From assembly GCF_020595125.1 (NCBI RefSeq), contig NZ_JACNMS010000002.1, positions 682,001-746,000 of the forward strand: DNA of 64,000 nt. Direction: 5' to 3'. The notes under the pieces are model-generated. The model was not told the origin of the DNA. It saw nothing but the letters and a program-made list of their open reading frames with translations, and ran no database searches. This DNA is from Jeotgalibacillus aurantiacus (GTDB taxonomy: Bacteria > Bacillota > Bacilli > Bacillales > Jeotgalibacillaceae). The position numbers were made by a program, and so were the translations under genes. Shown one piece after another: positions 1,272-63,280 of this stretch. Each line of letters opens with the position of its first letter. Positions within the stretch are counted from its first letter, which is position 1.

Positions 1272-1386
1272 GTGCAGGGGGCATCCTTCGCTTTCCGCGG
1301 CCGCGCGGTGAGCCAGCTAGCGCTTCGCGCTACGCTGTCTCACCTGTCGCTTCTCTGCCGCAGGAGTCTTCGGATGCCCCCTGCAC
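1272..1386 (-). repeat. Structured intergenic repeat, subtype A (copy 1)
   Basis: A 115-bp element with perfect 15-bp outer arms (GTGCAGGGGGCATCC and its complement). The core carries GCCGC/GCGGC, CTCACC/GGTGAG and a terminal AGCGC-GAA-GCGCT hairpin. It lies in the 0.6-kb gap downstream of ykuU. Apart from this copy, a partial copy and a terminator I see nothing else in the gap; an open frame through the repeat has no ribosome site and no recognisable product. Confidence 0.9.
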
Positions 1387-1585
1387 TTTTGAGGTTTTTC
1401 AAAAATAAGGAGTGCAGAATAGAGATCTGCAAATAGTATTCCCTTTCCTTCCGGTGCTTTGAAGGCGGATTTAGATAGAAAATGAACACCTTTAGTTTAA
1501 TGGACAGGTCAAAATCAGAAGCGCTAGAGTGGTATGGATAGACATTGTCCTGGTATATTAGGGAACTTATCTGTGGTGGATCGGC

Positions 1586-1626
1586 AAAAAAAGAGACAGC
1601 TCTATATCACGAGCTGTCTCTTTTTG
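1586..1626 (-). terminator. Intrinsic terminator of ykuU
   Basis: An 11-bp perfect stem (AGAGACAGCTC with GAGCTGTCTCT) has an 8-nt loop. On the minus strand it runs into T-rich sequence just past the ykuU stop. The stem ends are A/T-flanked on both sides, so it could also act on the other strand. Confidence 0.85.
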
Positions 1627-1638
1627 GTTATGTTTGAA

Positions 1639-2181
1639 TTATAGAGTTTTCTGGCCTGGCTTCCAGTTAGCCGGGCAAAGTCCGCCTGTTTGAAGGGCCT
1701 GAAGTACGCGAAGTGTTTCATCTACATCACGGCCGATGTTGTTGTGGAACACTGTCTGGTACTGCAGTTCACCTTCAGGGCTGATGATGTATAGTCCGCG
1801 AAGTGCGATTCCTTCTTCTTCAATAAGGACACCGTATTCACGTGATACCTGATGGTTTGTATCTGCTGCAAGTGGATATTTCAGTTCGCCAAGACCATTG
1901 TCTTTACGCTCTGTGTTGATCCATGCAAGGTGTGTATGGATTGTATCAGTAGAAACCCCGATAATTTCTGCATCAAGGTCTTCGAATTCGTCGTAACGAT
2001 CTGACATTGCTGTAATTTCAGTTGGACATACAAAAGTGAAGTCCATTGGATAGAAGAAAAGTACTGTCCACTTGTCTTCTTTCATGTTTTGTTCAAGGCT
2101 AACCTTGCCAAATTCTTTGTTTGCAAGAACAGCATCCATTTCAAAGCGTGGAGCCTGCTTGCCAACCATACGTTCTGCCAT
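1639..2181 (-). CDS. ykuU: Typical 2-Cys peroxiredoxin (AhpC/YkuU type)
   Basis: A 180-residue cytosolic thiol peroxidase that reduces hydrogen peroxide and organic peroxides. The peroxidatic cysteine is C52 in the FTFVCPTE motif and the resolving cysteine is C169 in GGLCPANW, as in typical 2-Cys peroxiredoxins. I chose the ATG at 2181 because GGAGGG stands 7 nt before it; a TTG five codons upstream lies inside that ribosome site. The gene is divergent from the MscS gene, as ykuU and ykuT are neighbours in B. subtilis. I saw no clear PerR box in the 256-bp gap. A dedicated terminator follows, so it is probably monocistronic. Confidence 0.93.
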   Translation of the reverse strand: MAERMVGKQAPRFEMDAVLANKEFGKVSLEQNMKEDKWTVLFFYPMDFTFVCPTEITAMSDRYDEFEDLDAEIIGVSTDTIHTHLAWINTERKDNGLGELKYPLAADTNHQVSREYGVLIEEEGIALRGLYIISPEGELQYQTVFHNNIGRDVDETLRVLQALQTGGLCPANWKPGQKTL

Positions 2182-2374
2182 AAGAAATCCCTCCAAAAAT
2201 AATCTGCATCAAGGTGAAATCGTTCACCTCTAAAAAACTCACGTTGTTCATGATAAATGATTGCCATAGCATAGTCAATTTAATTCAGAATCAATTTGAA
2301 TGAAACTGCAGGTGAGTCTTTTTCTAAAGTATGGTCCAAATCCAATGGAATTAACCCGAATTACTTGAATCTAC

Positions 2375-2399
2375 GTTACATTGTTTGATATAAGGGTAT
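2375..2399 (+). promoter_or_regulatory. Candidate SigB promoter of the MscS gene
   Basis: GTTACA (2375-2380), a 13-bp spacer and GGGTAT (2394-2399) resemble the general-stress sigma-B pattern GTTTAA-N12-14-GGGWAW, 38 bp before the ATG. From memory, ykuT belongs to the sigma-B regulon in B. subtilis. The -35 half is imperfect, so this is a prediction. Confidence 0.4.
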
Positions 2400-2437
2400 A
2401 GTGAAAAAATCTACATATTTTTTAATGGGGTGAGTCG

Positions 2438-3295
2438 ATGGAAACTTTATTGTTCAATGCACTCGGCAGCCGGCTGGCTGACTACGAGTGGGGAGCACTC
2501 CTGATCGCCATCGGGATTGGTGCCTTAAAGATTATTGGTATTATTATTGCCTTTTTAATTGTCCGGTCGATCGGTAACCGGATCCTATCAAATGTCTTCG
2601 AAAAATATCAGGAAAAAGAAAATATTTCACTTGGTCGGGCAAAAACACTCGAAAGCCTGATAAAAAATGTATTCGGTTATGCACTGATCTTCATTTTGGT
2701 TGTGACGATTCTTCAGGTTTTCAACTATGATGTCACTGCGTTAATTGCGGGAGCCGGTATTATAGGGCTCGCAATCGGCTTTGGTGCTCAGGGGCTCGTC
2801 AGTGATGTGGTCACCGGTTTTTTCATTTTGCTTGAGAAGCAGATTGACGTAGGTGATTATATTACAACAGGAAGTTTTTCAGGCATTTGCGAAGAAGTCG
2901 GATTGAGACAGACGAAAATCCGCGGATTTGATGGTACACTTCATTTTGTCCCAAACCGTGAGATTACAGGAATGAGCAACCACTCGCGAGGCAACATGCG
3001 CGCTCTGATCGATATTGGCATTTCCTATGACGATGATATCGATAAAGCTATTGCCGTGATGCAGGCTGCCTGTGATGAAGTGGCAGCATCAAATGACATG
3101 ATCGTTGAAGGACCAAACGTACTTGGCGTTCAGACACTTGGTGCATCAGATGTCGTCATCCGCGTGATTGCCAAAACAGTTAATAACGAGCAATGGGGCG
3201 TCGAACGCGAGCTACGCAAAGTATTAAAAGAAACACTTGATAAAAACGGAATCGAAATCCCGTTCCCTCATCAAGTGTATGTCGAAAAAAAATAA
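2438..3295 (+). CDS. ykuT: MscS-family mechanosensitive channel (YkuT)
   Basis: A 285-residue small-conductance mechanosensitive channel that should vent solutes on hypo-osmotic shock. There are three membrane segments, at roughly residues 18-45, 68-88 and 92-125. The last is the Gly/Ala-rich pore helix running into GAQGLVSDVVTGFFILLE, the MscS signature. A cytoplasmic beta/alpha cage domain follows to the C terminus. The ATG at 2438 sits behind GGGGTGAG. It is divergent from ykuU and ends in its own terminator, so it is a single-gene unit, possibly stress-induced. Confidence 0.92.
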   Translation: METLLFNALGSRLADYEWGALLIAIGIGALKIIGIIIAFLIVRSIGNRILSNVFEKYQEKENISLGRAKTLESLIKNVFGYALIFILVVTILQVFNYDVTALIAGAGIIGLAIGFGAQGLVSDVVTGFFILLEKQIDVGDYITTGSFSGICEEVGLRQTKIRGFDGTLHFVPNREITGMSNHSRGNMRALIDIGISYDDDIDKAIAVMQAACDEVAASNDMIVEGPNVLGVQTLGASDVVIRVIAKTVNNEQWGVERELRKVLKETLDKNGIEIPFPHQVYVEKK

Positions 3296-3300
3296 CCCAA

Positions 3301-3334
3301 AAAACGACCTGATTTTAACAATCAGGTCGTTTTT
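3301..3334 (+). terminator. Intrinsic terminator of ykuT
   Basis: Stem AAACGACCTGAT / ATCAGGTCGTTT with a short loop, then a T-run, immediately after the ykuT stop. The A-run in front makes it potentially bidirectional. Confidence 0.88.
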
Positions 3335-3444
3335 AGAGTGTTGAATTTTAAAAGACAAACTTTAATTTTCGTGACATTAAATTAAGATCACTCTCAAAAG
3401 TGATAATTAAAGGGCTGTTGAAGTAGAGGGTTTCCACACAAAAA

Positions 3445-3559
3445 GTGCCAGGTCATTCCGTAGACTTCTGCGGCAGAGGAGCGACAGGTGAGACAGCGTA
3501 ATGCGGAGCATTAGCTGGCTCACCGCGCGGCCGCGAAAAGCGAAGGAATGACCTGGCAC
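3445..3559 (+). repeat. Structured intergenic repeat, subtype A (copy 2)
   Basis: A 115-bp element with perfect 15-bp arms (GTGCCAGGTCATTCC and complement) between the convergent ykuT and dapL genes. The inner stems are GGTGAG/CTCACC, CAGC/GCTG and the tip AATGC-GGA-GCATT. The tip differs from copy 8 (AGTGC/GCACT) by a compensated base pair. Confidence 0.92.
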
Positions 3560-3590
3560 GATTTAGAATTTCGACAACATTAAAACTGAT

Positions 3591-4706
3591 TTATTTAGTG
3601 TGTATATAATCTCTCATTAACCCGATCGCGATACCAATCGCCTTTTCGTCAGGGTTTAATTTCGCATGGTGCAATCCGTACGTTGAATCCACACCAAGCC
3701 AGAACATAAAGCCCGGGATTTCTTTAAGAAAATATCCGAAATCTTCGCCGGTCATCGCTTTTTTACAATGAACAAACTCAACACCCTCGTAAGATTCAGC
3801 AAAAGTGATAAAGTCGTTCACCGATTCCTCATCGTTATAAACCATATAATACGGCTGGTTAAACTCCGGAATAACTTCACACTCGAAGGATGCGCTGATT
3901 CCTTCACAGATTGCACGAACGCGGCTTTTTAAAATCTCCATCGTTTCCGGGTCCAGGCTTCGCATTGTTCCGTTTAATTCTGCTGTTTCAGCAATGATGT
4001 TGCCGACAGTACCGGCTTCAAGCTTTCCTATCGTTACGACACCGCTGTCTAGCGGATCCACTGAACGTGCCACAATGGTTTGAAGCTGTGTAATTAAATG
4101 GGCACCCGCCACAATCATATCTCTCGTTTTGTGAGGATAAGCAGCATGTCCACCCTTTCCTTTCATGGTGATTTTCAGTTCTGATGTATTGGCAAATAAA
4201 AGTCCAGGCTTTGATGCGACCACGCCCGCTTTGTATTCAGGCGCAATATGAAGACCCATAATTTCATCAGGCATCCACTCCTGCATTTCTTTTGACTCGA
4301 GCATTCTGGCCGCTCCGCCAGGTCCTTCCTCTGCCGGCTGGAAGATAAACAGAACATTTACTTCAGGCGGCTGATTAACGAGCTCGGTCAAAATACCAAG
4401 TGCGATCGCCATATGAAAGTCGTGGCCGCACGCATGCATTCTGCCAGGATGCTCGGAAGCAAAATCAAGTCCCGTCAGCTCTGTGATCGGCAGTCCATCA
4501 ATATCTGTCCGATAGGCAATCGTTTTGGATTCAGGTTTCAAACCTGTCAGCCGTACAAAGAGACCTGTTTCCCACTTTTTGATTTCGATTCGCTCCTGAG
4601 GAAGGCTTTCTATATAACGGAGCAAATACTGCTGTGTTTTAAATTCCTGATAGCCGATTTCAGGAATTTTGTGTAAATCTCTTCTGATTTGAACAAATGA
4701 GTTCAT
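3591..4706 (-). CDS. dapL: N-acetyldiaminopimelate deacetylase (M20 family)
   Basis: A 371-residue M20 amidohydrolase that removes acetate from N-acetyl-LL-diaminopimelate in the acetyl branch of lysine/diaminopimelate synthesis. The metal-site motif HACGHDFH lies at residues 91-98, with catalytic Asp near 69 in the YRTDIDGLP stretch and the Glu pair in AEEGPGG near 130. It is next to dapH, which makes the acetylated precursor; that pairing separates it from other M20 hydrolases such as hippurate hydrolase. ATG with AAAGGAATG eight nt upstream. A terminator lies between dapH and dapL, so dapL probably has its own promoter or depends on read-through. It is the ykuR orthologue. Confidence 0.9.
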
Positions 4707-4749
4707 TTATTTCATTCCTTTCGCGCTGTTAAACGGACATCACTTCATT

Positions 4750-4790
4750 GCAGTCAGGATCTCCAACCATCCTTAATGGTCACTGACTGC
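4750..4790 (-). other. Imperfect leader hairpin upstream of dapL
   Basis: GCAGTCA (4750-4756) pairs with TGACTGC (4784-4790), and inside it ACCAT pairs with ATGGT. It lies in the dapL leader about 45 bp before the start codon. It does not match a lysine riboswitch that I recognise, and no T-run follows, so its role is unknown. Confidence 0.45.
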
Positions 4791-4817
4791 AGGAATATCC
4801 ACACATCATTTGCTTCA

Positions 4818-4860
4818 GAAAAAAGGCTGGGACAGCACTCATCAGAGTCGTTCCAGCCTC
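4818..4860 (-). terminator. Intrinsic terminator of dapH
   Basis: On the minus strand AGGCTGGAACGACTCT pairs with AGTGCTGTCCCAGCCT around a 4-nt loop (small mismatches), then TTTTTT. It starts about 20 bp past the dapH stop, before dapL. Confidence 0.85.
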
Positions 4861-4878
4861 TTTATATGAAATCCCGTA

Positions 4879-5592
4879 TTAAAGCTGACGGAGTTCCTGT
4901 TTGATTTCTGTTTTTGACTTTGTTTTTTCATCAATTTTCTTAATCATTTTTGCAGGCGTACCGGCAACAACTGTATAAGGTTCTACGTCTTCAATAACAA
5001 TTGCGCCTGCTGCAACAACAGCACCTTTACCAACGGTTACACCTTCAAGTACAACGGCATTGGCACCAATGACAACATCATCTTCCACGACAACCGGCTT
5101 AGCTGATGGCGGCTCGATGACTCCGGCAAGAACAGAACCTGCTCCGATATGACAGTTCTTACCTACTGTTGCACGGCCTCCCATTACGACGTTCATATCG
5201 ATCATTGTTCCTTCACCGATTACTGATCCGATGTTAATAGAAGCGCCCATCATGATGACTGCATTGTCACCGATTTCAACCTGATCGCGGATAATTGCAC
5301 CTGGCTCAATACGGGCTTTAATATTTTTCAGGTCAAGCATCGGGATCGCAGAGTTACGACGGTCATTTTCAACGACATAATCCCAGATCTGATCTTTATT
5401 TTCTTCAAGTGCAGGTGCAATGTCAGCCCACTCTCCGAAAACAACGCCTGATCCTTCTGATAAAAACGTCTGAGAAGCATCACCAAAATTAATTTTGTGA
5501 AGGTCAGCACCTTTTACATATACTTTTACAGGTGTTGACTTCTTCGCATTCTGTATGTAAGAAATGATTTCATTTGCATCCATCTGATTCAT
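4879..5592 (-). CDS. dapH: Tetrahydrodipicolinate N-acetyltransferase
   Basis: A 237-residue acyltransferase that transfers acetyl from acetyl-CoA to tetrahydrodipicolinate. Residues 1-85 form the small N-terminal domain of the family ([20 protein letters not shown]). About 90-205 is a left-handed beta helix built of hexapeptide repeats ([IV]GxNAV, VIGEGT, VGKGAV). Length and N-terminal domain distinguish it from DapD succinyltransferases. The first ATG is preferred because GAGAGGAG stands nine nt before it. It is the ykuQ orthologue and functions with dapL. Confidence 0.92.
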
Positions 5593-5673
5593 TGTTGCAT
5601 TCTCCTCTCAATTGTTTGAATAATTATAAATCCTCTTTTACTTTATCAGATCACAGCATGTGTAGACAAGTGA

Positions 5674-6555
5674 TCAGTTTTTGTTCGTTTTTTCAAGGTG
5701 CAGATTGACGGATTCAATAAATGCCTCGACCTGAGGAAGCTCAAATGCAGACTGATATCCAAGCAGCCACGTATCTCTTTTCAATGCAGTCTCATCCTCC
5801 ATATTCAATGCTGTTGTATACACATCCTCCTCACCTGTCAGCGTAATTGATGGAAGGATGGCATACCCAATACCATTTAATGCCATTTGCTTACACGTTT
5901 CAATCTGATCCACCAGAATATTTTGCCTCGGCGTAATCTGAAATTGACGGTTCCACCACTCCTGAATTTCCTGATAGTAAGTGGAATCACTTTTGAACTG
6001 TATAAATGGGCGATTAGTCAAATGCAGATCTTCAATTCTGCGGATTTCCCGATCCACTAAATAAAGCTGATCCTGAAAGAGATGCATTTTCGGCCCTTTC
6101 CAATCAGGTGTCCCTCTGATAATGCCTATATGAACATCCCCATTATAAACAGCCTGCAAAATTTCACTGCTCCATCCGGTAATAAGCGAAATTCTCGCAT
6201 GAGGATTTGTCTCTACAAACAATTTCAGCACCTTTGGCAGCCAGTTCTGACCGACGATTGAAGCACAGGCGATCTTTAGCGTTCCATACACCTGGGAATC
6301 AAGTGATTGAAGCTTTTCTTTGATGCCCTCTTCTTTTGCCAGAACTTCCCTTGACAGGTTCACAATCATTTCTCCGGCAGGTGTAAGGGTGAGTCCTTTT
6401 TGAGAACGGATAAACAATGGCTTTTGCCATTCCTTTTCGATCGTCTGAAGTCTTTGTGATAATGCGGGCTGAGATACAAAAAGACGCTCTGCTGCTTTTC
6501 GCATATTCATTTCCTGAGCAAGAATATCAAGAAGACGGTAATCTGAACGGTTCAT
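5674..6555 (-). CDS. ccpC: LysR-type regulator CcpC
   Basis: A 293-residue LysR-family transcription factor. A winged helix-turn-helix covers residues 4-63 (NMRKAAERLFVSQPALSQRL) and a periplasmic-binding-protein-like effector domain covers about 90-285. The sequence is close to B. subtilis CcpC, which represses citrate synthase and aconitase genes and responds to citrate; shared stretches include LITGWSSE, IQFKSDSTY and DQIETCKQMAL. It lies just downstream of the MFS exporter gene (20 bp) and upstream of dapH. The citrate role comes from the orthologue, not from target sites seen here. Confidence 0.9.
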   Translation of the reverse strand: MNRSDYRLLDILAQEMNMRKAAERLFVSQPALSQRLQTIEKEWQKPLFIRSQKGLTLTPAGEMIVNLSREVLAKEEGIKEKLQSLDSQVYGTLKIACASIVGQNWLPKVLKLFVETNPHARISLITGWSSEILQAVYNGDVHIGIIRGTPDWKGPKMHLFQDQLYLVDREIRRIEDLHLTNRPFIQFKSDSTYYQEIQEWWNRQFQITPRQNILVDQIETCKQMALNGIGYAILPSITLTGEEDVYTTALNMEDETALKRDTWLLGYQSAFELPQVEAFIESVNLHLEKTNKN

Positions 6556-6574
6556 TTATCTTCTCCTTCTAACA

Positions 6575-8068
6575 TTATTCATTTTTTGGCAGGAAGAATA
6601 AAAGGATAAAGGCAGCAACCGCGAAGCCGAATACAATGAGGTAAACCGTGCTTAATCCACCCGTCATGGCTTCCTGTAGTCCGGCAAGCACGTCAGGATC
6701 GAGGGTGTTGCGCTGTTCTTCTTCTAGAAGACTGTTCACTGCTTCCACACCTAATCCGTTAAGCTCATCACTTTCATCTGCCGTAAAAGACCGCTGAATA
6801 GAAGCATTCAGTACGCCTCCGAGCAATGCTACACCAATCGTACTACCGAGATTTCTCATAAACATATTGGCAGCCGTTGCAGCACCTCTCAAATTCCATG
6901 GCACCGCACTCTGGATGGAAACGATAAAGGATGTCGTTGTTAATCCCATCCCAACGCCGACAAAGAATGACGACATCGCTGCCCACCACGGACCATATTC
7001 CGGCTTCATGAGAACAAACAGAAGTGTTCCTAGAATGAGTGCAGAACCGCCCATCAGACTCGTCTTATAATAGCCAATTTTAATCAGCAGTCTTCCGGCT
7101 ATTGTAGCCGCAATTGGCCACCCAATTGACATAGCTGTTAATGTAAACCCCGCTGTCCTCGCATCCTCTTCCATGACGCCTGTGACAAATGCCGGCAGAT
7201 AACTCGATATGCCGATCAACAGGACACCCGTCATGAGTGAAGCTGCATTAGCAATAAAAATGGCCCTGTTTTGCCAGATGGAAAATGGCATCATTGGATC
7301 CTCCACCTTCAGCTCATGCAGGACAAACCAGACTAACAGCAGGGCAGCGAGAACAAGTAATACGATAGCCTGCACCGAAGTCCATGAAACAGACACGCCA
7401 CCTTCAACCAGAAGGTATAACAGAAAGGTCAGCGCCAGCGTTAAAAGGATGGCACCTTTATAATCAATTGGAGATCTGTTTTTTTCTACATCCTCTTTTA
7501 AAAACAGCCATAAACCTGTGAGTGAAAGCAATCCAAGCGGAATGTTCACCCAGAATACGTATTGCCAGCCGACTGTTTCAACAAGCAAACCGCCAATTGC
7601 AGGCCCCATTACAGCTGATATTCCCCACACACTCGACAGGTAGCCCTGGATCTTAGCCCGTTCTTCCTTCGTATAAATATCTCCGACAATGGTTGTTGCG
7701 ATAGGTAAAACCGCACCTGCTCCAAGCCCCTGAATAAATCTGAACGCAATCAGCCACTCCATTGATTCAGCAAATCCGCACAAAATAGAACCAATTAAAA
7801 AGAGTGACATCCCAAGCGTCATGACCGGTTTGCGTCCGAATAAATCAGACAGTTTTCCGTACAGCAGAACCGTTACGGTGCTCATCAGCAGATAAGAAGA
7901 AAAAACCCAGCTATAGAGCTGGAATCCTCCAAGATCTGCCGTTATAGAAGGCATGGCAGTAGAAACAATCGTTGCTTCAATCGCGCCGACAAACATGGCA
8001 AGCATGACGGATGCGAGTATATAAGGTCTGTATTTAATTATTTTCTGATCATGTTCTGTTTGGCTCAT
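6575..8068 (-). CDS. DHA2-family multidrug MFS exporter
   Basis: A 497-residue major facilitator with about 14 predicted membrane helices, typical of the DHA2 (EmrB/LmrB) drug:proton antiporters. Motif A is YGKLSDLFGRKPV near residue 70 and motif C is GPAIGGLLVE near 155. A loop of about 35 charged residues occurs before the last helix. It is placed between darB (19 bp) and ccpC (20 bp), a position not filled in the B. subtilis yku cluster as I remember it, so it may be a local insertion into this operon. Substrates cannot be read from the sequence. Confidence 0.88.
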   Translation of the reverse strand: MSQTEHDQKIIKYRPYILASVMLAMFVGAIEATIVSTAMPSITADLGGFQLYSWVFSSYLLMSTVTVLLYGKLSDLFGRKPVMTLGMSLFLIGSILCGFAESMEWLIAFRFIQGLGAGAVLPIATTIVGDIYTKEERAKIQGYLSSVWGISAVMGPAIGGLLVETVGWQYVFWVNIPLGLLSLTGLWLFLKEDVEKNRSPIDYKGAILLTLALTFLLYLLVEGGVSVSWTSVQAIVLLVLAALLLVWFVLHELKVEDPMMPFSIWQNRAIFIANAASLMTGVLLIGISSYLPAFVTGVMEEDARTAGFTLTAMSIGWPIAATIAGRLLIKIGYYKTSLMGGSALILGTLLFVLMKPEYGPWWAAMSSFFVGVGMGLTTTSFIVSIQSAVPWNLRGAATAANMFMRNLGSTIGVALLGGVLNASIQRSFTADESDELNGLGVEAVNSLLEEEQRNTLDPDVLAGLQEAMTGGLSTVYLIVFGFAVAAFILLFFLPKNE

Positions 8069-8087
8069 CTGTCGGCTCCCGGCTGCT

Positions 8088-8640: not shown

Positions 8641-8759
8641 ACCGGACCTGGACCATCCTACGCTTTCCGAGGCCGGGCGGTGAACCCGCTGTGCTTCGCA
8701 CATCGGTTTCACCTGTCCCTTTCCGCCGCAGGAGTCTTCGGATGCCCCATGCCCTGGGT
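8641..8759 (-). repeat. Structured intergenic repeat, subtype B, diverged arms (copy 3)
   Basis: The core is clear (GGCCGGGCGGTGAACCCGCT ... GGTTTCACC) with a TGTGC/GCACA tip. The outer arms are no longer perfect complements and one P2 strand (GCCTC) has drifted. It is the most decayed of the full-length copies and lies between darB and ykuJ. Confidence 0.8.
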
Positions 8760-8792: not shown

Positions 8793-8858
8793 GGACCAGG
8801 ACCATCCACGCTTTCCATTGTCCAGCTCCGGCGACTAGCTCCTCGAGGTCATATGTCC
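8793..8858 (-). repeat. Partial composite repeat (structured repeat end joined to second palindromic repeat)
   Basis: GGACCAGGACCATCC plus CGCTTTCC, an end of the structured repeat, runs directly into TTGTCCAGCTCCGGCGACTAGC and CTCGAGGTCAT. The second part is one arm of the second palindromic repeat seen complete at 63067-63186. The same junction occurs in both places. The right half is missing here. Confidence 0.65.
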
Positions 8859-9726: not shown

Positions 9727-9728
9727 GT

Positions 9729-20881: not shown

Positions 20882-20994
20882 GTGCCTGGTCATTCCTTCG
20901 CTCCGCGGCCGCGCGGTGAGCCAGCTAGTACTCCGCACTACGCTGTCTCACCTGTCGCTTCTCTGCCGCAGGAGTCTTCGGAATGACCAGGCAC
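20882..20994 (-). repeat. Structured intergenic repeat, subtype A (copy 4)
   Basis: 113 bp with perfect 15-bp arms (GTGCCTGGTCATTCC and complement). GGTGAG/CTCACC stem, tip AGTGC-GGA-GTACT with one wobble. It lacks a few bases of the usual CTTTCCGCGG segment. Confidence 0.9.
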
Positions 20995-21103: not shown

Positions 21104-21215
21104 GGGGCGTATTCCCCCTTCGCTTTCCACGGCCGGGCGGTGAACCCCTCGTGCTTCGCACAATGGTTTCACCTTTCCCTCCTCTGCCGTAGGAGTCTTC
21201 GGGGGAATACGCCCC
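21104..21215 (-). repeat. Structured intergenic repeat, subtype B (copy 5)
   Basis: 112 bp with perfect 15-bp arms (GGGGCGTATTCCCCC and complement), only 109 bp from copy 4 and in the same orientation. It carries a third P2 pairing variant (ACGGC with GCCGT) and the GGTGAA/TTCACC P3 base. Confidence 0.9.
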
Positions 21216-21311
21216 TTTATCTCAAACAACTTTTGATTAATTTTGTGAACAAACCATACCGAGAGCATTCTGCAGAACCACAGCGTTAGAGAAGCACATA
21301 TGGACGTTAGC

Positions 21312-21333
21312 GAAGGAATGCCCCGGCACGGCT
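21312..21333 (+). repeat. Partial structured repeat (one arm)
   Basis: GCGAAGGAATGCCCCGGCACG is the 3' end of a plus-oriented copy with no core or partner arm. It lies just before the corA stop. Confidence 0.55.
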
Positions 21334-21350
21334 TTCATATAAACAATATT

Positions 21351-32121: not shown

Positions 32122-32862
32122 ATGAAAAAGCTGCATTTATTGATCTTTGCACTGATTTTAACATTAATCCTCGCGGCATGCGGTACAGAAACAGCTGAAC
32201 CTGCATCTGAGGACGGAACAAACGGCACATCTGAAACAGTGGACAATGAGGAAACGACCGAAGAAGAGGCTGTTGAAGAAGAGCCTGCTGAAGAAACAGA
32301 AGATGAAGCTGCTGTTGAAGAAGAAGAACCTGCTGAAGAAGAAGAGGCTGCTGAAGAAACGGCTGAAGAGGAAACAGCTGCCGGTGAAGAAAATGGAATG
32401 CGCCTGCTCGAACAGCAAATGACCGTTGAATTAAATGGAGAATCAATGGACAAAACAGCGTTTCTTCAGGAAAACACAAACAATGGATACAGTATGTATG
32501 TATTGGACGGCTTTACTTATACACCGGAAGAACCGAACGTTGACCAGGTTTTCTTTAATGAAGATCCATCTCAATACATGAGAATCGAAACATTCCCTGC
32601 AAACGAAACTGACACTACATTTGTTCAGGATCAGATGGCTGGCCAGCGTGACGCAGTCAATGCAGAAAACGCTGCCGACTGGATGCCTGAAAGCAGTCAA
32701 TTCGAAGAGGTCATTGCGGGTTACTCAACACAGACAGAAGACACTGACTATCACTCTCTTTTGGCAAAACAGGGTGATAAACTGATTAAAATGACAATGT
32801 ACTCAAAAGCCGACACCGGCACACAGGACGCTTTTCTAAAAATGGCTGAAACGATTCAATAA
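32122..32862 (+). CDS. Lipoprotein with extreme acidic linker
   Basis: 246 residues. The signal peptide ends in the lipobox LAAC, with C20 as the predicted lipidated residue, so it is anchored on the outer face of the membrane. Residues about 45-96 are almost entirely Glu, Ala and Thr, an extended highly negative linker. The C-terminal part (about 100-246) looks folded and has no domain I can name. ATG behind GGAGGG. Monocistronic, with its own terminator. Confidence 0.8.
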   Translation: MKKLHLLIFALILTLILAACGTETAEPASEDGTNGTSETVDNEETTEEEAVEEEPAEETEDEAAVEEEEPAEEEEAAEETAEEETAAGEENGMRLLEQQMTVELNGESMDKTAFLQENTNNGYSMYVLDGFTYTPEEPNVDQVFFNEDPSQYMRIETFPANETDTTFVQDQMAGQRDAVNAENAADWMPESSQFEEVIAGYSTQTEDTDYHSLLAKQGDKLIKMTMYSKADTGTQDAFLKMAETIQ

Positions 32863-35297: not shown

Positions 35298-35410
35298 GGT
35301 CCGGACTCACCCGTAGACTCCTGTGGCGGAAAGGGACAGGTGAAACCGAATGTGCGTAGCACAGGCGGGTTCACCGCCCGGCCACGGAAAGCGGAGGGTG
35401 AGTCCGGACC
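35298..35410 (+). repeat. Structured intergenic repeat, subtype B (copy 7)
   Basis: 113 bp with perfect 15-bp arms (GGTCCGGACTCACCC and complement). P2 is GTGGC/GCCAC, P3 base GGTGAA/TTCACC, tip TGTGC-GTA-GCACA. It lies in the 445-bp gap between clpE and the M3 peptidase gene. Confidence 0.92.
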
Positions 35411-45484: not shown

Positions 45485-45599
45485 GTGCAGGCGACATCCG
45501 TAGACTCCTGCGGCAGAGAAGCGACAGGTGAGACAGCGTAGTGCGTAGCACTAGCTGGCTCACCGCGCGGCCGCGGAAAGCGAAGGATGTCGCCTGCAC
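45485..45599 (+). repeat. Structured intergenic repeat, subtype A (copy 8)
   Basis: 115 bp with perfect arms (GTGCAGGCGACATCC and complement). P2 CTGCGGC/GCCGCGG, P3 GGTGAG/CTCACC plus CAGC/GCTG, tip AGTGC-GTA-GCACT. It is the least degraded subtype A copy, between the convergent radical SAM and ktrD genes. Confidence 0.93.
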
Positions 45600-56256: not shown

Positions 56257-56292
56257 AAACCCTCATCCCTTAACACTGGGACGAAGGTTTCT
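56257..56292 (-). terminator. T-box terminator hairpin
   Basis: AACCTTCGTCCC pairs with GGGATGAGGGTT around a short loop, then TTTTTT. It is the alternative to the antiterminator that uses the TGGGTGGTACCGCG strand. Confidence 0.88.
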
Positions 56293-56490
56293 CCGCGGTA
56301 CCACCCAAATTAGCTTTCGCTCTCTTTACTGAATCGTACATCCATTATAGCAGGTGTAATTCGATGATAAAAAGGCCTGAGTTTCCACCAGCCACTCAGT
56401 CTCTGCTTTTTGCCTGTTTACATCTACTCCGTCTGCCGGATCATCGCAATATACTGTTTCACTTAAACGCTTTTAAGCGATAAAGAATAC
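56259..56490 (-). ncRNA. T-box leader of the NhaC-type gene (apparent Tyr specifier)
   Basis: The 14-nt T-box core TGGGTGGTACCGCG lies at 56293-56309. Stem I shows AGTA, AGAGA and GGTGGAAAC in the expected order. The specifier loop reads GAAT-TAC-ACC, giving UAC (56358-56356) as the likely codon. Uncharged tRNA-Tyr would stabilise the antiterminator and switch on the carrier. A register shifted by one base (UUA, Leu) cannot be fully excluded without folding. Confidence 0.9.
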
Positions 56491-56494
56491 TGCT

Positions 56495-56522
56495 ATATTA
56501 ACATATTTGTACGGTCAGTCAA
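56495..56522 (-). promoter_or_regulatory. Promoter of the T-box transcript
   Basis: TTGACT (56517-56522), 16-bp spacer, TAATAT (56495-56500). It starts right after the stop of the EAL gene. Confidence 0.6.
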
Positions 56523-56528
56523 GTCTTT

Positions 56529-57554
56529 TTAGGATGCAAACGGTTTTTTAAGCTCCGGTATGATCGCTTTTTCTGAAGGCTTTCCGATCAGGTAACCCTG
56601 CCCGAGATCAAAACCGATTTTTTTACACACTTCCAGTTCTTCATTTCTTTCCATGCCTTCAGCAAGCACCTTTATACCAAGTTGTTCAGAAGTTTGGTAC
56701 ACACGGTGAAGAAAATCCTGCTTCTGATGATCCTGATCACAGAATGAAACGTATGACCGGTCAATTTTCACATAATCAGGTTCCAGCATCTCTAACATTT
56801 CGATTGTTGAAAAGCCGGCTCCAACATCGTCAAGCGCTACTTTCATTCCTTCACGTTTATAAGTCTGAAAAACTTTCTTTAAATGATCGACATCTTTGAT
56901 TTTTTCTGTTTCTACCACTTCAAAAACAAGATCTCTCGGATCCACATGATATTTATTGACGATCTGAAACGTGTGGCGGAGGCAGAATTCAGGGTTATAA
57001 ATGGTTGACGGCAGAAAGTTGATAAAGCTCTTTACGCCAGGGTCAATTTTGTCTTTTCTTGCCTTAATGGCTTCTTCTCTTGCTCTTTGATCCAGGAGTG
57101 AATGCATTTCAGCGGCGTTTGCCACCTGAAACAGCTCGTAAGGAGATATAGGATTTTCATTTTTATCAGCACGCAGCAGTGATTCATAGCCATACAGCTC
57201 TCCATTTTTAATATCCATAATTGGCTGCAGATGGCTGACCATTTTGCCATGCTGAATGAAATGTACTGTATTTCTATGTCTCAGCCTTACTGAAAATAAG
57301 TGCATAGGCATAAAGCGTGTAAGATGACCATTGCTTGAAACGCCACATTGAATTTCAGCGTCAAGCTTCTCTTCCATTTCTGCGAGTATCATTTCTATTT
57401 CCTTCAGGCTTGTATAGTCGCGGTAAAAAATACCTTTATCATGATCAAAGTCGAAGCTCAGTCTTGAGATCTCACTTTCATTAGCCTTAACGTAAAAAGT
57501 TCCTTTGTCATCAAAGCTGACAGATACTCCACAGTGAACGCATTGTGATTTCAT
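56529..57554 (-). CDS. Stand-alone EAL-domain protein
   Basis: 341 residues, cytosolic. An N-terminal segment (1-90) of unknown type begins with a CxxC pair (QCVHCG). The EAL domain covers about 100-335, with ESLLRA in place of EALLRW, NFLPSTIYN, EVVETEKI, DDVGAGFS, KIDRS and AEGME. Most metal ligands appear kept, so c-di-GMP hydrolysis is possible, but the altered motif also fits a c-di-GMP receptor. ATG 57554 chosen because GGAGTGA stands eight nt ahead; a GTG four codons earlier touches that site. Promoter not evident. Confidence 0.83.
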   Translation of the reverse strand: MKSQCVHCGVSVSFDDKGTFYVKANESEISRLSFDFDHDKGIFYRDYTSLKEIEMILAEMEEKLDAEIQCGVSSNGHLTRFMPMHLFSVRLRHRNTVHFIQHGKMVSHLQPIMDIKNGELYGYESLLRADKNENPISPYELFQVANAAEMHSLLDQRAREEAIKARKDKIDPGVKSFINFLPSTIYNPEFCLRHTFQIVNKYHVDPRDLVFEVVETEKIKDVDHLKKVFQTYKREGMKVALDDVGAGFSTIEMLEMLEPDYVKIDRSYVSFCDQDHQKQDFLHRVYQTSEQLGIKVLAEGMERNEELEVCKKIGFDLGQGYLIGKPSEKAIIPELKKPFAS

Positions 57555-57701
57555 CTTTACTGTCACTCCCCATCCCTTATTTATTGCTTTAACTTTTATA
57601 CATCTACCCTATATATACATACTTTATTCCTATTTAGTAAAATGATAATACTTTTTTTGTGAATTTTTCAGGATTTTTTTGAGGTGAGTAAATTTGATTA
57701 T

Positions 57702-57757
57702 ATGCATTTTGAAGTTGAAACAACTCTTTAATGAAATGTTTCAACTTCAAAATGCAT
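57702..57757. repeat. Perfect 20-bp inverted repeat
   Basis: ATGCATTTTGAAGTTGAAAC (57702-57721) and its exact complement (57738-57757) around a 16-nt spacer, upstream of the EAL gene and downstream of prfC. It has no T-run on either strand typical of a terminator, so it may be an operator, a processing hairpin or a mobile-element remnant. Confidence 0.85.
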
Positions 57758-57771
57758 AGTTTTTTAAAATC

Positions 57772-57884
57772 GTGGAGGGGACATCCTACGCTTTCCGTGG
57801 CCGGGCGGTGAACCCGCCTGCGCTTCGCACAGTCGGGTTCACCTGTCCCTTTCCGCCACAGGAGTCTTCGGATGTCCCCTCCAC
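57772..57884 (-). repeat. Structured intergenic repeat, subtype B (copy 9)
   Basis: 113 bp with perfect arms (GTGGAGGGGACATCC and complement). P2 GTGGC/GCCAC, P3 GGTGAACCCG/CGGGTTCACC uninterrupted, tip TGTGC-GAA-GCGCA (one wobble). Confidence 0.92.
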
Positions 57885-57923
57885 TTTGATTTATTGAAAT
57901 AAATTTTGTTTTTCGAAAAAATA

Positions 57924-57966
57924 TGCCTTGGCCATCCTTCCGAAAGTGAAAGGGATGACCAAGGCA
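57924..57966 (-). repeat. Arms-only miniature of the structured repeat
   Basis: GCCTTGGCCATCC and GGGATGACCAAGGC form an imperfect stem around about 14 nt. The arm fits the outer-arm pattern of the family and no core is present. It lies 49 bp past the prfC stop and may end that transcript. Confidence 0.6.
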
Positions 57967-58014
57967 CTATGCATGTAAATTTATCATTCAAAATAATTTA
58001 AAGTTCAGTCTTGA

Positions 58015-59580
58015 TTAAAGCAGGCTGTATAATTTGATTTCCGGGTGTTTGTCTGAGAACCATCTCATGGCGAAGTCGTTTTCGAAAAGGAAGACGAGTT
58101 TGTCGTAGCGGTCTTTTACGAGCAGGCTTCTTTGAGATGACATGGAGTCTTTAATGTCTTCTTCGTTTTCAATCCACCTTGCCATCTTTGATCCGATGTT
58201 TTCCATCATAACATCCGTGTTGTATTCATTTTTCATGCGGTGTTCGAAAACTTCGAACTGGAGGTGACCGACTGCTCCCAAGATCACTTCTTCTGTTCTG
58301 AGTGTGCGGTAGAGCTGGATGGCACCTTCCTGAACGAGCTGATTGATTCCTTTATGAAAATGTTTTTGCTTCATCACGTTTTTCGCCGTTACCCTCATGA
58401 AGAGTTCAGGAGTGAACTGAGGAAGCTTTTCGAACTGATAGCTTCTTTTACCGCCGGTCAGCGTATCACCGATCTGGTAGTTTCCGGTGTCATGAATACC
58501 GATAATATCTCCGCTTACTGCATTATCGACTGTGTTCCGGTCATCTGCCAGAAATGATGTGGATGAGCTCAGTTTAATCGTTTTTCCTGTCCGGCTAAGC
58601 TGGACAGGCATTCCTCTTTCGAACTGGCCGGAGCAGATACGAAGGAAAGCAATCCGGTCACGGTGGGCAGGGTTCATGTTTGCCTGAATTTTAAAGATGA
58701 AACCTGAAAATTCTTCACTGACAGGATCTATGCTGCCGATATCTGTTTCACGCGGCTGCGGTGACGGGGCAAATTCAAGGTAGGTTTCCAGAAATGTCTG
58801 AACACCGAAATTTGTGAGGGCACTCCCGAAAAACACCGGTGTTACTTCGCCATTGGCAAGTCTTTCTTCCGTGAATTCATTACCAGCCTCATTTAGCAGC
58901 ATTATATCCTCAAGTGCCTGATCATATAATGAAGATTCTTTAATGGTATGATCTCCTTCGAGTTCACCTTCTTCGTTTAATGGAAGAAAACGATCTGCTT
59001 CATCCGTTCGGAACTGTTCAATACGGTGATGATGACGATCGTAAATGCCTAAAAACTCTTTCCCCATTCCAATCGGCCAATTCATCGCATATGATTCAAT
59101 TCCTAAGACTTCTTCAAGCTCTTCCATAATCTCAAGCGGCTCTCTTCCCTGACGGTCAAGCTTATTGACAAATGTAAAAATCGGAATACCACGCATTTTA
59201 CATACTTTGAAAAGCTTCAGTGTTTGTGCTTCAATCCCTTTTGCTGCATCAATAATCATGACAGCACTGTCAACCGCCATTAGAGTACGATACGTATCCT
59301 CACTGAAATCCTGGTGTCCGGGTGTATCAAGGATATTAATTCTTTTTCCATTATAATCAAACTGCATGACAGATGATGTTACTGAAATGCCACGCTGCTT
59401 TTCTATCTCCATCCAGTCGGAAGTGGCAAACTTTCCTGACTTTTTCCCTTTTACTGTTCCCGCTGCCCTGATGGCTCCACCAAACAATAGAAGCTGCTCA
59501 GTTAATGTCGTTTTCCCTGCATCCGGGTGAGAAATAATCGCGAAAGTCCTTCTGGATAAAACTTCTTCTTTTAATGTCAT
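58015..59580 (-). CDS. prfC: Peptide chain release factor 3
   Basis: 521 residues, the usual RF3 length. A translation GTPase that removes RF1/RF2 from the ribosome after peptide release. P-loop SHPDAGKT at 17-24, switch [10 protein letters not shown], and NKLD for guanine recognition. The N-terminal [14 protein letters not shown] and [18 protein letters not shown] stretches are specific to RF3 rather than EF-G. I set the start at ATG 59580 behind GAGAGG. Confidence 0.95.
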
Positions 59581-59699
59581 GATTTTATTTCCTCTCTTCA
59601 TTTCATTCCTTCATCCATAATAGTAGTTCAAAGAAGAGAATGCAATCTCACTTTCAGCACATACTAACACTCAGTCAACAGAAAAAAGCACATTCAGAA

Positions 59700-59728
59700 T
59701 TGAAGAAAAACTGTACACGTTGTATAAA
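59700..59728 (+). promoter_or_regulatory. Promoter of the DUF4397-sortase operon
   Basis: TTGAAG (59700-59705), 17-bp spacer, TATAAA (59723-59728). Three TGTAC motifs (59712, 59734, 59746) surround and follow it, spaced about one or two helical turns apart, and could be operator sites. Confidence 0.55.
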
Positions 59729-59777
59729 TAAATTGTACAAAAGCTGTACGAACAAAAAAACAAGGAGAGTGGAAAAT

Positions 59778-60587
59778 GTGAAGAAATTGTTAGGCTCATT
59801 GTTAGCGGCTGTCATGATGATGGCTATGATGGGAGGCGCAGCTCTTGCTGACAACCATGAAGGTGGAGAAGGTTGGGTTAGAATCCTTCACGCATCTCCA
59901 GACGCACCGGCTGTTGACGTCTATGTAAATGGTGAAGCAGTAGTTGAAGGCGCGGCATTCAAAGATTACACAGATTACTTAGCACTACCTGCTGGTGACC
60001 ATGAAGTGGAAATCTTCCCGGCAGGCGACACAGAAACGGCTGTTATTTCTGAAACATTAACTGTTGAAAGCGGAATGTACTACACTGCATCTGCAATCGG
60101 AACTCTTGACAGCATTTCACTTAACGTAACTCAGGACGATCTGACAATTGGCGAAGGCATGACAAAAGTTCGTGCAGGACACTTCTCACCTGATGCACCT
60201 GCAGTTGATGTAGGTCTAATCGGTGGAGACGCTGTATTCAGCGGAGCTGAATTCCCTGCTGTAACTGATTTTGCTGAGCTGGAAGCTGGATCTTATGACC
60301 TTGAAGTACGTACTCCAGAAGGTGACCAGGTTCTTGACCTTTCAGGAACTCAGCTTGAAGCTGGAATGGCTTACAGTGTATATGCTGTAAACACACTTGA
60401 CAGCATTGAAGCATTAGTATTAACTGCACCAGCTGCAAACGCTATGCCATCTGAAATGCCTGAAACAGGTATGGGTGGAATGGCTGCTGAGGAAAACAAT
60501 TCATTCATGCTATATGCTGCAGCAGCTGCATTAATGGGTGGAGCGGTTATTGTTTTCGCAGTACGCAGACGTGCTCACAATAACTAA
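59778..60587 (+). CDS. Sortase-anchored DUF4397 surface protein
   Basis: 269 residues. A signal peptide (1-23, cleavage after ALA) is followed by two tandem DUF4397 domains (about 33-120 and 126-212), each starting with a variant of VRxxHxSPDAPAVDV. The end is a sorting signal: MPETG at 227-231, an LPxTG variant, then a hydrophobic helix and RRR. So it should be exported and covalently fixed to the wall. GTG start at 59778, with AAGGAG about nine nt upstream. It is followed after four bases by its probable sortase. Role unknown; perhaps adhesion or biofilm. Confidence 0.85.
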   Translation: MKKLLGSLLAAVMMMAMMGGAALADNHEGGEGWVRILHASPDAPAVDVYVNGEAVVEGAAFKDYTDYLALPAGDHEVEIFPAGDTETAVISETLTVESGMYYTASAIGTLDSISLNVTQDDLTIGEGMTKVRAGHFSPDAPAVDVGLIGGDAVFSGAEFPAVTDFAELEAGSYDLEVRTPEGDQVLDLSGTQLEAGMAYSVYAVNTLDSIEALVLTAPAANAMPSEMPETGMGGMAAEENNSFMLYAAAAALMGGAVIVFAVRRRAHNN

Positions 60588-60591
60588 TTAA

Positions 60592-61257
60592 ATGAAAATT
60601 AAAGCTTTATTAATCGGGTTGATCTTCCTGCTGAGTGCATGCTCAGCAGGCGATCAACCTTTTTCTGCAGAACCTGAAACCGCTCCGGCTGCAGAAAGTG
60701 AGACAGAATCAACCGCTGTTCAGGAAGAACAGGAGCAGAACGAAAACCGGATTCAGGTTTCAGATGCACCCAATCCTTTTCTTGCCGCTCAACAACAGAC
60801 GATTACCCCTTCAAGATTAGTGATTCCGGCTATCAACGTTGATGCAGTCATTAACCCTTATGGATTAGATCCGGAGTCTGGTGGCATGGCAGTACCTGAT
60901 AACGGTGAAGAAGTCGCCTGGTATGAACCTGGATATAAACCGGGGCAAAAAGGGAACGCAGTCCTTGCAGGACATGTAGACAGCGAAAAAGCACCTGCTG
61001 TCTTTTGGGATCTGAAGGAACTTACTGAAGGTGACGAAATTCATGTTTACGATGAATCGGGAAAAATGCTCACTTACGTTGTAACGAAAACCGAAATTTA
61101 TGACCGCAATGAAGCGCCAATTCAGGAAATATTCGGCGTATCCTCTAAAGAAAAACTGAACCTGATTACATGTACCGGTTATTTTGATCGTGACATAAGA
61201 AATTATGTTGACCGGATGGTTGTGTATACTGAATTAAAATCAGATTCAGCAGCTTAG
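60592..61257 (+). CDS. Class F sortase with lipoprotein signal
   Basis: 221 residues. The N-terminal signal ends LLSAC, a lipobox with C17, instead of the usual uncleaved membrane anchor. After an acidic linker (about 20-55), the sortase domain shows the catalytic His H128 in LAGHVD, Cys C194 in LITCTG and Arg R208 in YVDRMVV. It should attach the DUF4397 protein encoded just upstream. The four-base gap carries no ribosome site, so translation is probably coupled to the substrate gene. Confidence 0.85.
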   Translation: MKIKALLIGLIFLLSACSAGDQPFSAEPETAPAAESETESTAVQEEQEQNENRIQVSDAPNPFLAAQQQTITPSRLVIPAINVDAVINPYGLDPESGGMAVPDNGEEVAWYEPGYKPGQKGNAVLAGHVDSEKAPAVFWDLKELTEGDEIHVYDESGKMLTYVVTKTEIYDRNEAPIQEIFGVSSKEKLNLITCTGYFDRDIRNYVDRMVVYTELKSDSAA

Positions 61258-61285
61258 TAATTTCGCATTTTCAAAGAATGTGACG

Positions 61286-61335
61286 GACCTGCACCTGCTA
61301 CCCGTTCACGGATAGCAGGTGCAGGTCTGTTTGTT
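61286..61335 (+). terminator. Terminator of the sortase operon
   Basis: Perfect 15-bp stem GACCTGCACCTGCTA / TAGCAGGTGCAGGTC with a 12-nt loop, then T-rich sequence. Confidence 0.9.
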
Positions 61336-61345
61336 TTAAGAAACT

Positions 61346-61585
61346 TTACATTTCAGACGTCCACTGCTTAATTCTCTGGCTCAGTTCACTTGCTTCTTCC
61401 TGTGTCATGACCTTTTCTAATGATTCTCTAATGTTCCGGCTGGTTTCTTCACCAGATTCCTCGTATTTGTACAAGTAGGACCAATGGACAGATGGTATCG
61501 CGATCAGGATCGTTTCCTCTTTTCTGTTTTCATGAATAAATACGGACCTTTGTCCGTTTGAACCATAGCTTTTTCTAATTTTCAA
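61346..61585 (-). CDS. YueH-like small protein
   Basis: 79 residues starting MKIRKSYGSNGQRSVFIHEN; a central IPSVHWSYLYKYEE and the C-terminal helix with QWTSEM recall the YueH family from memory. Function unknown. I prefer TTG 61585, nine nt after GAGGAG; the ATG three codons upstream directly touches that site. Convergent with the sortase operon. Confidence 0.6.
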   Translation of the reverse strand: MKIRKSYGSNGQRSVFIHENRKEETILIAIPSVHWSYLYKYEESGEETSRNIRESLEKVMTQEEASELSQRIKQWTSEM

Positions 61586-61644
61586 GTAGTTCATCTCCTC
61601 TGATGTCAGACATCATACTTTTATTGACGTTTCTGTGACGGATA

Positions 61645-61673
61645 TTGAAACGCTTGCATTTGCATTGTAGAAT
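61645..61673 (+). promoter_or_regulatory. nupC promoter
   Basis: TTGAAA (61645-61650), 17-bp spacer, TAGAAT (61668-61673), 55 bp before the start. Confidence 0.6.
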
Positions 61674-61728
61674 GATATCAGCATTTTGACAAGAATGCGC
61701 ATATAAATAAGATAGGAGCTGTAAAATA

Positions 61729-62946
61729 ATGAATATTCTCTGGGGATTAGCTGGTATTGTGACCATTCTTGGAATCGCTTTCCTCTTTTCTAATAACCGT
61801 AAGAGCATCAAGTGGCGTCCGGTATTAGTCGGGCTTGCAATTCAGCTGACATTTGCCTTTCTCGTTCTCCAAACGAGTATTGGAGCGAGCTTCCTTGAAG
61901 CATTAACTTTTGGTGTCAATAACATCATTGGTTATGCGAATGCCGGTATTGACTTCGTATTAGGCGGATTTGCTTATCAGCAGCAGGAAGGCGGATTTGT
62001 ATTTGCGATTAACGTGTTGACGATTATTATTTTCTTCTCGTCTTTAATCTCGGTTCTTTACTACTTAAAGATCATGCAGTTTGTCATTAAAATTCTTGGT
62101 GGCGGACTATCATGGTTACTTGGCACAAGAAAAGCTGAGTCCATGTCTGCTGCTGCAAATATCTTCGTAGGACAAACTGAAGCACCTCTTGTTGTTAAAC
62201 CTTACATTGCTAAAATGACTGATTCTGAACTGTTTGCCGTTATGACAGGTGGACTTGCTTCGGTAGCAGGTTCTGTTCTGATTGGATATTCATTGCTTGG
62301 TGTACCACTTGAATATTTATTAGCTGCGAGCTTCATGGCCGCTCCGGCTGGTCTTGTGATGGCAAAAATGTTTGTACCTGAAACAGATAATCGTCCTGAC
62401 CCTGAAGATTTTAATATGGAAGCCGATGAAGAAGCTTCGAACGTGGTTGACGCGGCTGCACGCGGTGCTGCAACTGGGCTGCAGCTTGTATTAAATGTTG
62501 GTGCGATGCTTATTGCCTTTATCGCTCTCATTGCTTTGCTGAACGGTATTTTAGGTGGAATTGGTGGTCTTGTTGGATTTGACCAGCTTTCTATTGAGCT
62601 GATCCTTGGTTATGTCTTTGCACCACTTGCGTTTGCGATTGGTATTCCTTGGGATGAAGCGATCCGTGCGGGTAACTTCATTGGACAGAAGCTTGTTCTG
62701 AATGAGTTTGTAGCTTATGCGAGCTTTGCACCTGAGATTGATCAGTTCTCTGAAAAGTCAGTTGCAATCATTACGTTTGCTCTTTGTGGATTCGCAAACA
62801 TTTCTTCACTTGCGATTCTATTGGGTGGTCTTGGTAACCTTGCACCTAACAGACGTCCTGATATTGCGCGTATGGGTATTCGTGCTGTTGCAGCCGGAGC
62901 GCTTGCTTCAATGCTATCCGCTGCGATTGCAGGTATGTTCTTCTAA
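61729..62946 (+). CDS. nupC: Concentrative nucleoside transporter (NupC family)
   Basis: 405 residues with about ten membrane segments of the CNT family. The order Nucleos_tra2_N, gate and Nucleos_tra2_C is recognisable: [15 protein letters not shown] near 143, [11 protein letters not shown] near 183, and [25 protein letters not shown] near 305-330. It imports nucleosides with H+ or Na+. ATG behind AGGAG. Monocistronic, with its own terminator. The precise nucleoside preference is not readable. Confidence 0.92.
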
Positions 62947-62980
62947 TTCTCAGAGGTTATTTTTTTACAGATATGTACCG

Positions 62981-63019
62981 AAAAAGCGTCACAACTCATA
63001 AGGTTGTGACGCTTTTTTA
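62981..63019 (+). terminator. nupC terminator
   Basis: AAAAGCGTCACAAC / GTTGTGACGCTTTT stem with T-run. Confidence 0.92.
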
Positions 63020-63040
63020 AATAGCGGGTTATTATAAATC

Positions 63041-63280
63041 GGGTCAGGGACATCCTCCGCTTTCCTTTGTCCAGCTGCGGCGACTAGCCCCTCGAGGTCA
63101 TAAGTCAAAGATGAAAGAGGGCGAAGATCAGCCCTCTTTTCATCTTCGCCTTATGCTTGTCGGGGCTGGACGAGTCGCCTTCGCTTTTCTGTGGCCGCGC
63201 GGTGAGCCAGCTTGCGCTACGCACTGCACTGTCTCACCTGTCGCTCCTCTGCCGTAGGAGTCTGCGGATGTCCCTGACCC
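63041..63280 (-). repeat. Composite structured repeat (copy 10) interrupted by a second palindromic repeat
   Basis: Outer arms GGGTCAGGGACATCC / GGATGTCCCTGACCC are perfect, and the P3 stem and tip (AGTGC-GTA-GCGCA, imperfect) are present. About 125 bp interrupt one side of the core between CGCTTTCC and CGCTTTTC, a near-duplication at the junctions. It lies between nupC and the convergent murE-like gene. Confidence 0.85.
63067..63186. repeat. Second palindromic repeat, nested
   Basis: One side carries GTCCAGC, GGCGACTAGCCCC and CATAAG; the other carries CTTATG, GGGGCTGGAC and AGTCGCC. In the centre GATGAAAGAGGGC pairs with GCCCTCTTTTCATC, making a long hairpin of about 120 bp. A half copy is at 8808-8858. 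Confidence 0.75.

Follow-up and report, generated by a model that had tools for sequence, protein, structure and literature searches.

How can the two arms of a repeated hairpin differ from copy to copy and still pair with each other? The question is raised by a 64-kb stretch of DNA (hereafter the window) from the 3.5-Mb genome of Jeotgalibacillus aurantiacus (coded G000), in which a sequence-only reading had reported nine copies of an intergenic hairpin repeat with variable arms. Covariation is usually taken as proof of compensatory evolution in place. A sister species of the same genus (G004), the nearest by match scores among 40 relatives searched, holds many orthologous sites of this repeat, which makes the origin of the paired changes directly testable. 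We lean towards an old, non-autonomous interspersed element with a maintained hairpin, whose arm diversity would come from exchange of whole elements and not from stepwise compensation.

Structure and Covariation of the Hairpin

Read 5' to 3', a copy consists of AAAACC, a 15-nt arm, TNCGCTTTCC, a set of nested stems, CAGGAGTCTNCG, the complementary arm, and a short T-rich run. The tip of the nested stems is of the GTGC..GCAC type, and the cores fall into two types, A (CGCGCGGTGAGCC..GTCTCACCTGTCGCT) and B (GGGCGGTGAACCC..GTTTCACCTGTCCC). The N of TNCG is complementary between the two sides in 65 of 100 copies, compared with 31 expected. Within the sampled stretches of G000, 119 distinct copies were found, of which 106 were full length, 105 could be parsed, and 102 had at most four arm mismatches. 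The variable but self-complementary arms of the sequence-only reading were recovered at this scale, as the 102 usable copies include 75 with perfect pairing (15/15) and 60 distinct perfect arms; mismatches amount to 32 of 1530 arm pairs, five of them G-U. The sampled part of G004 (1.17 of ~3.5 Mb) yielded 56 copies, 36 of them perfect, with 24 of 840 pairs mismatched and six of these G-U.

Among 40 aligned copies, 98.6% of 1634 cells were paired versus 84.2% in shuffles, and both sides had changed in 21 of 41 pairs; when the 3' partners were slid, pairing fell to 36-48%. A covariation test, as the sequence-only reading had proposed, gave a score of 0.358 against a shuffled mean of 0.089, a fourfold difference reached by 0/500 shuffles, which leave the relatedness of the copies in place. 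A one-strand RNA signal was sought in the balance of G-U and A-C mismatches (5 versus 15 in G000, p 0.04; 6 versus 7 in G004; pooled p 0.08), and no claim is made from it.

Orthologous Sites in the Sister Species

The flanks of the 106 full G000 copies were sought in the 1.17 Mb of G004, and 56 sites were placed, with most flanks being 85-98% identical. The same arms were present at 24 of these sites, including 16 with the same core type, five with the same core type and a nested module in one species only, and three with a core type scored as different, which is clear for L033 and L141 (A versus B) and uncertain for L036. Different arms were found at 12 sites, 11 of which also differ in core type, while one has the same core type. 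The other placed sites comprise three where the only element lies in reverse orientation, 16 without a parsed element (several of them with partial ones), and one at which the focal copy was unparsed. Since 11 of the 12 sites with different arms also carry a different core type, arm diversity tracks the turnover of whole elements, and it appears to originate mainly from this turnover.

At the same-arm sites, substitutions were counted at 11 of 710 arm, 30 of 1330 core, and 135 of 2117 flank positions (Fisher 4e-8 for arm versus flank). The arms thus change about four times more slowly than the flanks, suggesting that arm pairing is maintained, probably by purifying selection. Among the arm pairs that changed at the 24 same-arm sites, nine carry a one-sided change and a single pair, at L144, is changed on both sides, L144 also showing another one-sided change. 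In-place compensation, or repair of one arm from the other, is thus rare at this distance. The sequence-only reading had argued that pairs changing together are the mark of a maintained structure; the maintenance is supported by the slow arms, but the joint change is hardly seen in place. The same nine to one argues against its alternative, that hairpin-templated repair keeps the arms matched, as a frequent process.

The site lists behind the tests of arm likeness, flank identity, and the ATTCC arm class (see below) were compiled by hand. At ten of the 12 different-arm sites (L138 and L055:1784 excluded), the arms were no more alike than those of random copies (p 0.98 for the outer seven positions; p 0.54 for positions 8-13). 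Flank identity at ten of these 12 sites averaged 0.83 on the left and 0.64 on the right, against an unrelated background of 0.55, whereas 21 of the 24 same-arm sites gave 0.95 on the left and 0.89 on the right. The different-arm sites look as if elements had inserted independently at a fixed left boundary or had been replaced from it, by a route that we infer. An exchange of half-arms, hinted at by L127, was not supported by the set of ten different-arm sites. Inversion of the core was also considered for the three opposite-orientation cases, which look as though the elements had inserted separately or the intergenic stretch had been inverted as a whole. At L055 and L155 and their G004 counterparts, the intergenic stretch between two oppositely oriented copies appears inverted or rearranged.

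Within a single genome, the arms vary almost independently of the cores. Of the pairs formed by 47 type A copies of G000 with cores of equal length, 20 have cores less than 1.2% apart, yet their arms differ on average at 33% of positions; the more distant core pairs show an arm difference of 32-38% (Spearman 0.11), and the arm-core correlation among 24 G004 copies is 0.25. The arms have a common consensus, G[TG]GCCGGG..CATCC. The family combines very strong covariation with little in-place compensation, much of the signal being differences between whole elements, which calls for caution in covariation-based RNA discovery in repeat families.

Insertion and the Young Arm Class

Absence from the sister species was compared among arm classes at 48 of the 56 sites, eight partial or unclear sites being excluded. 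The ATTCC arm class accounts for 9/9 copies absent from G004 versus 8/39 at occupied sites (Fisher 1.4e-5). Five of the nine absences look clean (L038, L118, L052, L133, L054), while at the remaining sites the sister carries other or partial elements. As ATTCC is the class missing from the sister, it appears to be a young class that spreads with little change to its arms. The possibility that arms are made anew at each insertion is disfavoured, because the young class keeps its arms.

One insertion is documented in full. The window copy at 3445 (L051) and the copy at L123 (G000:C4, near 109 kb) have three parts in common, a leader of 22 nt, the hairpin, and a ~112-nt tail, together 249 bp. At L123, a 32-bp terminator hairpin, GCCCTTTTGTYTTTATTTGAGACAAAAGGGCT, stands on both sides of the unit with one mismatch, and G004 has this terminator hairpin once at the same site, with no element and no arm. 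The comparison gives direct evidence that a unit inserted at a terminator and that the terminator was duplicated, fully shown at this one site. Set against a miniature inverted-repeat transposable element (MITE), which would have conserved terminal inverted repeats, the copied unit has leader and tail ends that are weakly inverted-repeat-like by eye, and the arms vary between copies. The sequence-only reading had found variable arms puzzling for transposon ends; the arms are indeed variable, but the puzzle weakens, since the copied unit reaches 22 bases to the left and 112 to the right of the hairpin and the arms are not its termini. An autonomous relative was sought via the tail, which matched twice in G000 and not at all in G004.

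For 26 of 105 G000 copies, the T-run of a terminator-like hairpin ends at most 40 nt left of the arm (at 20-26 nt for 16 of them), and the same test read inward on the right side gave 2/105 (Fisher 7e-7), the 40-nt window and the energy limits having been set after seeing the data.

Gene Context and Possible Role

With genes called crudely by a longest-ORF (open reading frame) method, elements lie between convergent rather than divergent neighbours at 34:7 in G000 and 27:9 in G004, where ~15 of each would be expected. In 74 of 92 copies in G000 and 43 of 58 in G004, the element has its 5' end nearer to a gene than its 3' end. In an intrinsic terminator, a stable hairpin would run directly into a stretch of T. 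To the right of the 3' arm, T occupies position +1 in 92%, +2 in 62%, +3 in 72%, and +4 in 47% of 105 copies, and AAAACC precedes the 5' arm. The location behind genes, the slowly changing arms, and the run of T on the right point to a possible role at transcript 3' ends.

Evaluation of Alternative Explanations

For the non-autonomous element with exchanged copies, we propose the following course. The conserved part of the element would be the hairpin of ~115 nt, and units of hairpin plus flank would insert behind intrinsic terminators of host genes, for which L123 gives the full picture and the position of 26 others is suggestive. Spreading would copy the arms faithfully, as in the young ATTCC class, and once in place the arms would stay paired, probably through purifying selection. 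At transcript 3' ends, the hairpin would most likely serve as a further, roughly bidirectional terminator or as a 3'-end stabiliser. Recombination or re-insertion may then exchange entire elements between sites or, at times, only a core whose arms stay behind, a presumed route for differences that are themselves observed.

Several observations weigh against this course of events. The slow change of the arms could partly be accounted for by base composition. A flanking direct repeat of at least 12 bases is found in only two of 105 copies (0/300 random pairings), so target duplication is not general; likewise, the 112-nt tail is common to only two copies, so the unit size of 249 bp is not general, and 79 of 105 copies are without a terminator-like hairpin close by. 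Between tandem gene pairs, the element runs against rather than along the genes at 34:17 in G000 and 32:16 in G004, and this 2:1 orientation implies that many copies are not behind the terminator of the upstream gene. Absences other than the one at L123 could be deletions in the sister, the comparison covering two species. A more specific proposal, which we entertain only tentatively, is that the element homes to intrinsic terminators by hairpin shape, lands at a fixed distance of ~22 nt with a single orientation, and leaves the terminator in two copies; from then on it would evolve as an exchangeable cassette, in which arm and core identity would be swapped between sites and only pairing selected.

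Stepwise compensatory evolution in place of a selected RNA structure would explain the strong covariation, the fourfold slower arms, and the two-sided change in the orthologous pair at L144. We consider it unlikely in view of the nine one-sided changes against one two-sided change in same-arm orthologues and of the mismatches, which show no firm strand bias (pooled p 0.08). A wobble pair is the usual intermediate of compensatory change, but G-U makes up only 11 of 2370 arm pairs in G000 and G004 together, compared with 149 of 2210 pairs in 182 terminator-like hairpins outside elements in G004, a contrast that is indicative only because these controls were picked by folding, which admits G-U. 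Quite unlikely is also hairpin-templated repair or template switching, which would rewrite one arm from the other, several paired bases per event. Near-perfect arms and few G-U pairs would fit such a process, and the mechanism, with perfect stems and several pairs changing at once as its prediction, is on record for RNA genes, as outlined in PMC8794818. However, template switching acts inside one hairpin and expects one arm to resemble the orthologue and the other to be rewritten, whereas here whole elements differ at a site, the arms are either both kept (apart from point changes on one side) or both different, and orthologous copies retain one-sided mismatches.

That the element is an ordinary repeat of the REP/REPIN kind, mobilised by a RAYT transposase, would be suggested by the two RAYT-like genes of G000 and by the published outline of REPINs, which likewise comprise many short intergenic palindromic units with compensatory differences in paired segments, including the spacers (PMC3116915). 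This origin is improbable: REPINs have conserved ends and a varying spacer, while in this family it is the arms that vary around a conserved core; REP/REPIN copies would be expected beside a RAYT gene, while here no element is found within ~1.5 kb of either RAYT-like gene; and L375, one of the two, is flanked by a different hairpin, GGGGACGGAGC. Finally, the core might insert into the loop of a pre-existing host hairpin, so that the arms would be the host's own. The A-rich and T-rich edges, the two clear sites with the same arms and different cores, and the core junctions, both of which are C-TNCG like tetraloop ends, speak for such a capture, which is nonetheless disfavoured as highly improbable. 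The pattern of the CATCC class, GNNNCATCCTNCGGATG, the arm class covered by the search, has no exact match in G000 and G004, with 153 matches at one or two mismatches; in addition, the arms have a common consensus, the young class carries its arms along, and the empty site at L123 is without an arm.

Distribution and Related Repeat Families

A covariance-model search of the genome and of related genera, also proposed by the sequence-only reading, returned at least 150 matches in G000 (150 being the number scored) and, at E 1e-4, matches in 168 of the 249 genomes and in 72 of the 105 genera searched, all within the order. Another Jeotgalibacillus (G007) has 137 matches, and 29 of 30 loci parsed there show variable paired arm segments, many around a constant internal loop. 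In G081, from another family, 11 of 18 loci were parsed, ten with the arm GGAAATATAC and one a 7-bp remainder; in 12 loci of G157 and G181 the arms are GGAAATACAC and close variants, with a few positions changed and pairing kept. None of these three genomes, which belong to other genera, thus showed hypervariable arms.

Although widespread in the order, the family has no Rfam match in the window at gathering score, in line with the earlier statement that no named family was recognised; at a loose threshold, ten matches were obtained around copy 3445, all far below gathering. No published account of this repeat was found by title or abstract opening, including a search with four core words, in a literature that left most subscription papers outside its scope. 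Bhal-1 of Bacillus halodurans, judged by its description in PMC2267715, could be a relative. The pneumococcal repeats BOX, RUP, and SPRITE are likewise structured and interspersed according to their description, BOX with a variable number of inner boxB modules, comparable to the nested module described below, and SPRITE with a resemblance to a terminator (PMC3049150); that description makes no mention of their inserting behind terminators. The Bacillus cereus group, a group of related bacteria, contains the interspersed, folding, and mobile-looking repeats bcr1-bcr18, whose likeness to the present element is by description only.

Candidate movers were searched for in the families PF01797 and PF00078. 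The two RAYT-like genes of G000 (Y1 transposase), L374 (C1:206 kb) and L375 (C1:175 kb), score above the Pfam cut-off and below the NCBIfam cut-off, and the GGGGACGGAGC hairpins flanking L375 represent a separate REP-like family. Group IIC introns insert beside terminator hairpins; no match to group II intron RNA was obtained in the window at the Rfam gathering score. A PF00078 reverse-transcriptase domain is present in a 1296-aa open frame at L379 (G000:C3:15162-15734), the only RVT_1 match in the genome.

Copies in the Window and the Second Module

All nine copies reported for the window were found at their positions, and all 15 arm bases pair in eight of them, the exception being the decayed copy at 8641. 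The variants of P2 (GCGGC/GCCGC, GTGGC/GCCAC, ACGGC/GCCGT), of P3, and of the tip were likewise present as described. The copies were said to be all intergenic, which stands in the window among ORFs of at least 80 aa, apart from a doubtful 90-aa ORF over copy 1272; the larger sample has 13 full copies out of 106 that overlap an ORF from the crude calls, so the rule is not absolute.

Core type A is found in the copies at 1272..1386 (plus strand, arms GTGCAGGGGGCATCC), for which the sister has kept both arms and lost the 5' part of the core, at 3445..3559 (L051, minus strand, arms GTGCCAGGTCATTCC of the young arm class), at 20882..20994 (plus strand, arms GTGCCTGGTCATTCC, with the same arms in the sister), and at 45485..45599 (minus strand, arms GTGCAGGCGACATCC, with the same arms and an identical core in the sister). 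The 249-bp copied unit around L051 spans 3333..3581 on the minus strand, with the leader at 3560-3581 and the tail at 3333-3444. Type B cores are carried by the decayed copy at 8644..8754 (plus strand), whose sister counterpart has perfect arms and a nested module, and by the copies at 21104..21215 (plus strand, arms GGGGCGTATTCCCCC, with the same arms in the sister), 35298..35410 (minus strand, arms GGTCCGGACTCACCC, arms the same and core identical in the sister), and 57772..57884 (plus strand, arms GTGGAGGGGACATCC). A remnant of one arm and its junction lies at 21309..21335 on the minus strand.

The copy at 63041..63280 (plus strand) is a composite, in which the arms GGGTCAGGGACATCC and a type A core enclose a nested second module (TTTGTCCAGCTGCGGCGACTAGC...TTCGCTTTTCT). 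This insert of ~124 bp occupies 63067..63190 (plus strand, right boundary approximate) and enters after NCGCTTTCC. Similar composites occur in five stretches of the sister genome. The second repeat module (TTTGTCYAGCTSCGGCGACTAGC...) is found inside the hairpin at 63067-63190 and also at 8809-8857 of the window, as well as at many G004 loci; 11 of the 15 starts listed are directly after NCGCTTTCC or NCGCTTTCT, and its presence or absence differs between orthologues with the same arms.

Two further repeats were identified in the window. Just ahead of copy 57772, a 29-bp inverted repeat without a spacer is located at 57701-57758 and is 90% complementary. A tandem GAAGAAG-rich repeat of 12-18 bp is located at 32245-32392 and perhaps codes for a glutamate-rich stretch.

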